Below, piece by piece: positions 43,723 to 47,597 of a stretch of DNA of 64,000 nucleotides. Origin of the DNA: Elusimicrobiaceae bacterium (GTDB lineage: Bacteria > Elusimicrobiota > Elusimicrobia > Elusimicrobiales > Elusimicrobiaceae); assembly GCA_017961585.1 (NCBI GenBank), contig JAGCWX010000013.1, forward strand, positions 62,001 to 126,000, read 5' to 3'. Made by a program: the position numbers and the translations under genes. The notes below the pieces were generated by a model, which had not been told where the DNA came from, searched no databases, and saw nothing but the letters and a program-made list of their open reading frames with translations. Numbering within the stretch: position 1 is the first letter of the stretch; the number at the start of each line of letters is the position of its first letter.

Positions 43723-43793
43723 GCGGGCGTGGTTCAATGGTAGAATGGAAGCTTCCCAAGCTTTAGACGAGGGTTCGATTCCCTTCGCCCGCT
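43723..43793 (+). tRNA. tRNA-Gly (anticodon CCC)
   Basis: 71 nt. Acceptor stem GCGGGCG with CGCCCGC and discriminator T; D arm GGTTCAATGGTAGAAT; anticodon arm GAAGC-TTCCCAA-GCTTT with anticodon CCC at 43755-43757; T arm GAGGG-TTCGATT-CCCTT. The 3'-CCA is not encoded (TTTTT follows), consistent with the CCA-adding enzyme gene upstream. Reads GGG codons. Confidence 0.95.
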
Positions 43794-46008: not shown

Positions 46009-46545
46009 TTAATACAATTGCACATCCCAACCTTGGGTCGCTAAATGATTACAGATTTTTGTAGCAATTTTGTCGCTACGATAAGCAGAACAACGATGAG
46101 TCCAGGAATCTTCAGGATTAGTCTTTAGAGAATGTAGTATATAAGAATCCATATCTCCGGGAACCCAACTCTCTTGTGTGATCCTTGACATTCCAATTGT
46201 AAAGCTGTCATTATAGTCCGCAAAAAGATCAAAATTTTTCCCAATACAACCCGTGGTATAGGTATTACAATTCATGTGTGAAACTAGATCCACGCTTAAA
46301 GGGATTTCACTACCTTTCCCAACGAAATAGGTGTCATTTGGCGGGATTCCATTTTCAAGGACATAAAGGTCAATGGCTTGTTCCATAGATTTTATGAGTA
46401 ATATTGCTTCAGTAACTTTGCTTTTTTCTACAGCGAACTGATATTGTGGCAAGGCCACGGCTGCTAAAATACCAATAATTAATACTACCACTAATAATTC
46501 AATGAGTGTAAAACCCATAGATGTTTGATTTTGTTTTTGATACAT
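46009..46545 (-). CDS. Solitary type IV pilin-like protein
   Basis: 178 residues from the ATG at 46545 (GGAGAGAG just upstream); the longer open frame has no ribosome site. Leader [11 protein letters not shown], then [18 protein letters not shown]: prepilin cleavage after Gly and Glu+5. The globular part has Cys pairs ([15 protein letters not shown]...KIC). Six of the ten final residues are polar or aromatic (GWDVQLY). It is preceded by an unusual palindromic region with at least four hairpins. A major or minor pilin of an as yet unplaced pilus. Confidence 0.88.
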
Positions 46546-46568
46546 ATTCTCTCTCCAGTTTGTGATAG

Positions 46569-46795
46569 ATATACCTAAGGTATATGAATCGTTTTGTGTA
46601 AAACAAAGACGACTGCTATTTGAGAGATTGGGATCACACAAATAAACAGTCGCCTACCTATATTGACGTTTCATCAAATACAGGGTTATTACCAGCAAAA
46701 CTGGGTAATTAGTCCAATTTTGCTGGTTATAGCGACTGTTTTGGTTCCCAATCTCTTGTGCTTATTGCACAAGTGATGTCTAAAGTAATTAGACA
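46569..46795. other. Dense inverted-repeat region upstream of a pilin gene
   Basis: Within the 332-bp gap between the pilin and lptB lie: ATATACC-TAA-GGTATAT (46569-46585); an arm pair AGAGATTGGGA (46623-46633) with TCCCAATCTCT (46746-46756); AACAGTCGC (46645-46653) with GCGACTGTT (46732-46740); an enclosed hairpin ACCAGCAAAA (46691-46700) with TTTTGCTGGT (46718-46727); CTTGTGC-ttatt-GCACAAG (46755-46773); TGTCTAA-agtaa-TTAGACA (46777-46795). Most stems are perfect. There is no ORF of note. It could be a structured RNA, a MITE-like element or a recombination site. Confidence 0.7.
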
Positions 46796-46877
46796 ACCAA
46801 GACAGTACTAATTGTAATAAAGCTTAAATGAAAAACCTCCTATGTTGATATACCCAACTGTACAACTATACAACATT

Positions 46878-47597
46878 TTACATTTTAAAGTCTTCGCCTA
46901 AATAAAGCTTGCGGGCGTTTGCATCGTTAAGTAGGGTGTTTTGATCGCCCTCTACTAAAATTTTACCGTCATAAATAAGGTAGGCGCGTTCGGTAAGGGG
47001 CAAGGTTTCACGCACGTTGTGATCGGTAATTAGTACGCCGATGCCTTTGTCTTTGAGTTTAAAAATCATTTGCCGCAGGTCGGACACGGTGATGGGGTCA
47101 ATCCCTACAAACGGTTCGTCCAAGAGGATGATTTGCGGGTTGCTAATCATACAGCGCGCAATTTCCATACGGCGTTTTTCGCCGCCCGATAACGTCCACG
47201 CTTTTTGTTTGGCCAGTTTGGTTAGCCCAAATTCGCCCAGTAGCTCGTCCACACGTTTTTTTTGCGCGGCTTTATCGTCGGAAATACGTTCCAGCACGGC
47301 CAGTAAATTTTCTTCTACCGTGAGCCCTTTGAAAATGGTGGGCTCCTGCGCTAAATAACCAAGCCCATGGCGTGCGCGCTCAAACATAGGTAATTGAGTA
47401 ACGTCCTGCCCGTCAATAAATACCTTTCCGCTGGTGGGGCGGATAAAGCCCACCATCATGTAAAAGGAGGTGGTTTTTCCGGCACCGTTGGGGCCTAATA
47501 GACCCACAATCTCGCCGGATTTTACGTGAATATCCACGCCTTTTACTACCATGCGGTCTTTGTATACTTTGACGATTTTTTCACTGCGCAGTTCCAT
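46878..47597 (-). CDS. lptB: LPS export ABC ATPase LptB
   Basis: 239 residues. Walker A GPNGAGKTTSFY, signature LSGGEKRRMEIAR, Walker B IILLDEPFVGIDP, switch His in ITDHNVRETL. The phrase GYLAQEPTIFKGL is typical of LptB and distinguishes it from LivF-like ATPases. It powers LptFG to extract LPS to the LptC-A bridge. 8 nt from the OstA-type gene. lptF/G and lptD are not in the window. Confidence 0.93.
   Translation of the reverse strand: MELRSEKIVKVYKDRMVVKGVDIHVKSGEIVGLLGPNGAGKTTSFYMMVGFIRPTSGKVFIDGQDVTQLPMFERARHGLGYLAQEPTIFKGLTVEENLLAVLERISDDKAAQKKRVDELLGEFGLTKLAKQKAWTLSGGEKRRMEIARCMISNPQIILLDEPFVGIDPITVSDLRQMIFKLKDKGIGVLITDHNVRETLPLTERAYLIYDGKILVEGDQNTLLNDANARKLYLGEDFKM

Follow-up and report, generated by a model that had tools for sequence, protein, structure and literature searches.

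The window analysed here is a 64,000-nucleotide (nt) stretch of a contig from an Elusimicrobiaceae bacterium (JAGCWX010000013.1 of assembly GCA_017961585.1, positions 62,001 to 126,000 of the forward strand); the element in question occupies the 332-bp gap 46546-46877 between two genes of the minus strand, an lptB-like ABC ATPase gene with its stop at 46878 and a pilin-like gene starting at 46545. Judged from its sequence and from that of its relatives, the gap very probably carries, on its minus strand, a leader that acts in cis on the pilin gene behind it by attenuating transcription. An initial annotation of the window had singled out the gap for its inverted repeats, and the stems that it listed are all present: the two-part outer stem consists of two perfect pairings, of 11 bp (46623-46633 with 46746-46756) and 10 bp (46644-46653 with 46732-46741), and two hairpins with 5-nt loops each are found at 46755-46773 and 46778-46794. 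The inner hairpin, put at 10 bp, is real but was understated, its 18-nt arms (46687-46704/46714-46731) being 89% complementary around a 9-nt loop; likewise, the motif GCGACTGTT, said to occur three times in alternating orientation, is matched exactly at 46732-46740 and in complement form at 46645-46653, but only imperfectly in the third place (gacgactgc, about 46608-46616).

The minus strand of the gap folds with an energy of -109.3 kcal/mol versus -68.6 +/- 4.9 for shuffled sequences (z -8.3), and the fold of the plus strand is weaker (z -4.9). On the minus strand, GGCGACTGTTTATTTG (46654-46639) forms a long terminator stem with CAAATAGCAGTCGTC (46622-46608), followed by TTTGTTTT (46607-46600); this 3' arm and its run fix the functional strand and the reading of the element, and the intrinsic terminator so defined, which a consensus scanner misses because its loop is longer than the scanner's limit, ends about 50 nt upstream of the pilin ATG. 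An RNA transcribed from the plus strand was rejected, its fold being weaker and the terminator being absent from that strand. The structured RNA that the annotation had offered as one option among several is thus strongly supported, with the minus strand as the functional one.

The element is neither unique nor unconserved, so that two of the conditions under which the annotation would have seen its readings refuted do not hold. Searches with blastn recovered it in 10 of 61 genomes (its own included), repeatedly in some, and a covariance model (R1) built from 11 of the copies found in this way matches 54 of 66 congeners and exposed a second, commoner class (class II); a further model (R2), built from 76 class II copies, matches 62 of the 66 congeneric genomes. 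Copy number is highly uneven, ranging from 1 to 127 per genome: the wider candidate list holds 127 copies in genome G070, 91 in G026, 47 in G071 and 43 in G066; in the genome of the window itself, five copies are clear and a sixth is weaker. Several contigs of metagenome-assembled genomes (MAGs) break a few hundred bases past the leader, in or after the next gene (e.g., at copies L085, L102, L124, L127 and L132), as expected if the 5' ends of pilin genes are repeated, so that the leader copy numbers are lower bounds. Within the phylum (341 genomes), only two genera of Elusimicrobiaceae and one other family yielded matches. When 84,980 species genomes were scanned for the element pattern, 70 stretches emerged; those labelled more specifically than "uncultured bacterium" all come from MAGs of Elusimicrobia or Elusimicrobiaceae, and herbivore guts predominate among the sources given. 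Phages gave no match and viral contigs no match to the element pattern, and a phage or viral origin was rejected on these grounds. At the gathering threshold of Rfam release 15, nothing but tRNAs passes, either in the window or at 14 homologous loci, and permissive thresholds bring up only eukaryotic families at chance level for the gap. A literature search found no paper that connects Elusimicrobia to this RNA, or to structured RNAs upstream of pilin genes.

The copies share four consensus segments, S1 CTGTTTTTGG, S2 CCAAAAACAGYCG, S3 CGGCTGTTT... and S4 AACAGCCG with its U-run, which form three mutually exclusive helices (1:2, 2:3 and 3:4) with compensatory changes. Across 129 copies, 98.4% of cells in helix P1 (S1:S2) are paired, and the double changes seen include CTATATTTGA/TCAAATATAG and CTATTTTTGG/CCAAAAATAG; in the R1 set, 97.4% of cells are paired and 46 are double-change cells, compared with 14 in shuffles. 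Counted over the whole structure in the 76 class II copies, 93.0% of cells are paired and 583 carry double changes, whereas shuffles give 168 and sliding the partners 122-193; the terminator version of this test gives 408 against 114. The terminator stem is paired in 99% of cells in alignment A2, and the 8 nt after S4 contain a mean of 6.4 U (129 copies).

A part of the antiterminator is private to each copy: a helix of 10-13 bp between a linker (L) and the future terminator loop (L'), whose sequence differs from copy to copy but matches itself. Double changes occur at eight of nine pairs of this private helix (R1 set; positions 7-15:137-145 of A2), its two halves form a duplex with a median of -17 kcal/mol as opposed to about -7 kcal/mol with the halves of other copies, and it reaches -12 kcal/mol or below in 98.6% of 213 copies. 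An intrinsic terminator upstream of a co-oriented gene and a conserved, mutually exclusive antiterminator (S2:S3 plus L:L'), features of an attenuator leader, are both present. Constrained folding of the RNA short of S4 favours the antiterminator in 98% of 128 copies, by a median of 8.7 kcal/mol; at full length, it favours P1 plus terminator in 86% of them, by a median of 5.5 kcal/mol. An unsystematic look by eye at the copies read revealed no conserved short open reading frame (ORF) around S1 of the kind that would encode a trp-type leader peptide.

Between S2 and S3 lies a long hairpin, K, with double changes at 15 of 15 pairs and 95.7% of cells paired in the 76 class II copies. Its loop comes in forms of 9 nt (NN + 6 + N), 7 nt (NN + 4 + N) and, in a few cases, 10-11 nt, and holds one of nine palindromic cores (UAAUUA, UUAUAA, UUCGAA, UCAUGA, UUGCAA, CUGCAG, GAUC, AGCU and UCGA). 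A core was assigned automatically in 203 of the 213 copies; the other ten comprise six without a palindromic K hairpin, two (L098 and L294) whose core is found on reading, and two real exceptions. The 31 distinct loops, which are not fully independent of each other, include 29 with a palindrome of at least 4 nt and 22 with one of at least 6 nt, whereas 5000 trials of letter shuffling within loops gave means of 12.7 and 2.3 and maxima of 23 and 8, respectively. On a quick tree the core changed at least 58 times, a figure inflated by tree errors, and up to eight different cores occur in a single genome. A leader's own core is no commoner elsewhere in that leader than other cores are, which makes an intramolecular partner unlikely; kissing between K and another loop of the same leader was rejected for this reason. 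A self-complementary core and switching between palindromes, as in symmetric kissing-loop RNAs, are present. Switching of the OLE and GOLLD loops between GGCC, GAUC and AGCU is accepted evidence for intermolecular symmetric kissing, the argument being that the neighbours within a palindrome cannot pair inside one short loop and that covariation there thus supports contact between molecules (PMC12286853). The K hairpin is therefore a good candidate for a symmetric kissing loop and probably joins two leader RNAs into a homodimer.

Two side observations concern K. In the window, the K-loop string CTAATTAC recurs in accessory hairpin a (46785-46793), and two hairpins of one molecule could kiss there; this second occurrence is not general among the relatives. 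In the genus labelled g12, shortened leaders have lost K or swapped it for a plain hairpin and kept P1, the private helix and the terminator, which makes them a natural test of K's contribution.

The position of the leader relative to genes was followed in the 213 distinct copies collected, as were the loops. A co-oriented ORF with a Shine-Dalgarno sequence lies within 400 nt in 201 of them, starting a median of 32 nt (quartiles 26-41) beyond the model end, and 155 of these 201 ORFs encode the N-terminal motif of type IV pilins, a positive outcome for the annotation's suggestion to look at other pilin genes for the element; in G070, this holds for 58 of 60 sampled copies. By eye, the other downstream genes are mostly lipoprotein, restriction-modification-like, glycosyltransferase-like and other accessory genes. 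Class I leaders, which carry GGAG on the 5' side and, ahead of S1, a short hairpin (AAGCC/GGCTT), often precede non-pilin accessory genes such as those for lipoproteins and a sulfatase-like membrane protein (L009, L011, L013, L018, L020, L029, L034, L092, L136 and similar), and some class II copies stand before restriction-modification-like genes (L047, L102, L130). ORFs with the N-methylation motif number 69 in G000, at least 150 in G070, 115 in G071, 58 in G030 and 75 in G072, and only part of them carry the leader, of which there are 6 copies in G000 and 127 in G070. The motif TATANT occurs 12-34 nt before S1 in 105 of 209 homologues versus 50 of 209 in a control window, and many copies thus seem to own a promoter; this positional test is better than a search for TATAAT allowing one mismatch, which is uninformative in AT-rich DNA.

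Table 1. Parts of the leader and of the gene behind it, in window coordinates.
Feature	Position	Strand	Support
Whole leader RNA, about 210 nt, S1 to terminator U-run	46600..46806	-	fold z -8.3; homologues by blastn and covariance models
5' extension of the leader, with GGAGG at 46840-46836	may reach about 46860	-	
Segment 1 (S1, ACTGTCTTGGTT), pairs with S2 as P1, the anti-antiterminator	46795..46806	-	
Accessory hairpin a, inside P1	46778..46794	-	
Accessory hairpin b, inside P1	46755..46773	-	
Linker L (AGAGATTGGGA), 5' half of the private helix, complementary to terminator loop L'	46746..46756	-	covariation; duplex energies
Segment 2 (S2, AACCAAAACAGTCGC), partner of either S1 (P1) or S3 (antiterminator)	46732..46746	-	
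K hairpin, candidate dimerisation hairpin	46691..46727	-	covariation in 76 class II copies
K loop, 9 nt, 5'-AC-UAAUUA-C-3', self-complementary 6-nt core in 2+6+1 layout	46705..46713	-	nine palindromic cores in homologues
C hairpin, between K and S3	46656..46686	-	double changes at 10 of 11 pairs, class II copies
Segment 3 (S3, GGCGACTGTTTATTTG), 5' half of the terminator stem and alternative partner of S2	46639..46654	-	
Terminator loop L' (TCCCAATCTCT), 3' half of the private helix	46623..46633	-	
Segment 4 (S4, CAAATAGCAGTCGTC), 3' half of the intrinsic terminator stem	46608..46622	-	terminator stem paired in 99% of cells
U-run of the intrinsic terminator	46600..46607	-	mean 6.4 U per 8 nt, 129 copies
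Shine-Dalgarno region of the pilin gene (GGAGAGAG)	46549..46556	-	
Regulated gene, type IV pilin-like protein of 178 aa with N-methylation motif (PF07963)	46009..46545	-	

In class II copies (e.g., L043 and L048), hairpin a, just after S1, contains a sequence, GGAACCGUAU-NAAGAA-AUACGG, that is conserved beyond its apparent need for pairing and is possibly a further binding site. Elsewhere in the window, a tRNA gene lies on the plus strand at 43723-43793 (Rfam RF00005, 68.9 bits).

What sequence comparison shows is the strand, the position before the gene, three pairings that exclude one another, the private helix and a palindromic loop in nearly every K hairpin; a bistable attenuator is the very probable reading. 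Before S4 is made, the nascent RNA would favour the antiterminator, with S2 paired to S3 and the linker L to the future terminator loop; after S4 is made, P1 and the long intrinsic terminator would be equal or better, and RNA polymerase would be released. The K hairpins of two leader RNAs would kiss symmetrically, in the manner of the retroviral dimerisation initiation site (DIS) or of the OLE and GOLLD loops. A released leader could thus contact the nascent leader of the same gene at K, whereupon its L' would take the nascent linker L before the nascent L' exists; with L denied to the antiterminator, termination would be promoted. Each pilin gene would in this manner sense its own transcript level, the logic of the plasmid pT181 being run by the sense RNA itself. 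Such self-repressing feedback through the released leader, with a termination-promoting sign, is proposed by analogy and only tentatively, and the same reserve applies to the broader idea that the leader senses its own concentration, its copies kissing through their self-complementary loops and setting the termination of their own gene. Dimerisation may alternatively favour read-through, which would reverse the sign of control. The parallel copies of a genome, from one to about 127 in number, would fall into several palindrome "channels" and could couple the expression of many pilin genes or insulate it. An attenuator leader with a K-mediated homodimer and inferred feedback is the best combined explanation of these data and, taken as a whole, a reasonably probable one.

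Alternatively, the same bistable switch could belong to a riboswitch or a protein-controlled attenuator, operated by a small molecule or an RNA-binding protein, in which K is only a structural or protein-binding hairpin. Ligand-controlled leaders do have this four-segment architecture of P1, antiterminator and terminator, class II copies keep hairpin a fairly well (consensus GGAACCGTAT-AAGAA) and some copies lack a palindromic K; however, the most conserved stretches are explained by the alternative pairings and the K loop, leaving no obvious invariant unpaired core elsewhere, no Rfam riboswitch matches, and nine unrelated K-loop palindromes are hard to square with one ligand or protein. This explanation is accordingly rather unlikely, though the most serious of the competitors, and the natural input of the switch may yet be a ligand or protein. 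It is improbable that the leader, once terminated, works chiefly in trans as a small RNA, the neighbouring gene being incidental: an antiterminator would be purposeless in a pure small RNA and a co-oriented gene with its own Shine-Dalgarno sequence follows at a narrow distance in 201 of 213 copies, even if a strong terminator would also release a stable RNA of about 210 nt and the K loop is common to many loci of one genome.

The initial annotation had also considered two readings at the DNA level, neither of which is supported. A cruciform or tyrosine-recombinase-type site for the exchange of pilin cassettes has in its favour that K resembles inverted arms around a 7-9 bp spacer, that symmetric spacers occur in recombination sites and that many copies stand before pilins. 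Tyrosine-recombinase and attC sites are defined by conserved arms read by the recombinase, whereas the arms here vary with compensatory changes among the copies of one genome, unlike the sites of a single recombinase; the palindrome is not centred (its flanks measure 2 and 1 nt), the element pattern has no match in viral contigs, and the strand-specific P1, terminator and U-run, the terminator lying shortly before an ORF with a Shine-Dalgarno sequence, would have no role in such a site, which is therefore very improbable. The decayed miniature inverted-repeat transposable element (MITE), or another small mobile element landing before pilins by chance, would fit a copy number that is high and varies widely among genomes, from 1 to 127, but hardly the fixed position in one orientation with the start codon a median of 32 nt beyond the model end, nor the long-term selection on several alternative helices in a single functional position; the copies are strongly divergent, the alignment gives no sign of recent identical insertions, and we give this reading next to no credence.

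Several observations weigh against the attenuator with a kissing dimer. The folding energies, which consider secondary structure only and ignore pseudoknots and kinetics, place the window copy near balance at full length (-84.0 versus -83.5). A consensus scan found no sigma-70-like promoter in the window, where transcription of the leader might also come from lptB. Six copies of genus g12 (L133, L134, L141, L143, L144 and L145) have no palindromic K hairpin, and L316 and L345 have the hairpin without the palindrome; leaders of this kind imply that dimerisation is not essential for the basic switch. The commonest cores, UAAUUA and UUAUAA, hold A-U pairs only, and a kissing complex of two free hairpins may thus be weak. 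Selection for orthogonal private helices within a genome was considered and rejected: cross energies are alike within and between genomes, and selection against cross-talk is thus unsupported.

The leader constitutes a previously uncatalogued RNA family before pilin genes in gut Elusimicrobia, and its 127 model matches in one 1.7-Mb genome are unusually many for a cis-regulatory RNA. It offers a first handle on the possible control of the 58 to at least 150 pilin-like ORFs per gut Elusimicrobia genome and, if a kissing dimer does operate the switch, a ready-made set of orthogonal natural parts. Among known systems, the trp-type attenuator has four mutually exclusive segments (1:2, 2:3, 3:4) whose logic is that of this leader; in comparison, the present leader adds the private helix between linker and terminator loop and the palindromic hairpin between S2 and S3. 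The layout of K, with a 9-nt loop, a 6-nt self-complementary core, 2 nt before it and 1 after, is also that of the HIV-1 DIS. The DIS serves dimerisation of the retroviral genome rather than the control of transcription; its cores are GC-rich, whereas those of K are mostly AU, and 7-nt loops with 4-nt cores also occur in K. The kissing loop of the DIS is described as palindromic and six nucleotides long (PMC7357161). In bacteria, OLE, GOLLD and ROOL are RNAs with symmetric intermolecular kissing loops, supported for OLE and GOLLD by palindrome switching (PMC12286853). They are large stand-alone RNAs of several hundred nt without a sequence or Rfam match to the leader, which by contrast acts in cis before many genes and ends in a terminator. 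The guanidine-II riboswitch (mini-ykkC) brings short self-complementary kissing loops into leader hairpins (PMC7357161); in that riboswitch, the presumed contact is between two hairpins within a single RNA, whereas each leader described here has only one such hairpin. Functional RNA homo-oligomers are considered rare (PMC7357161, PMC12286853).

The repC attenuator of pT181 is likewise a bistable leader, in which the antiterminator sequesters the 5' half of an intrinsic terminator. It is controlled in trans by another RNA, through a loop-loop kissing contact first and sequestration of the antiterminator thereafter (PMC4878617). In pT181, this other RNA is a separate, fully complementary antisense RNA; the leader described here is chromosomal, multi-copy and placed before pilins, and the self-complementarity of its K loop would make a separate antisense RNA unnecessary. 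If the kissing dimer operates the switch, a gene would measure its own transcript with neither a protein nor an antisense RNA.
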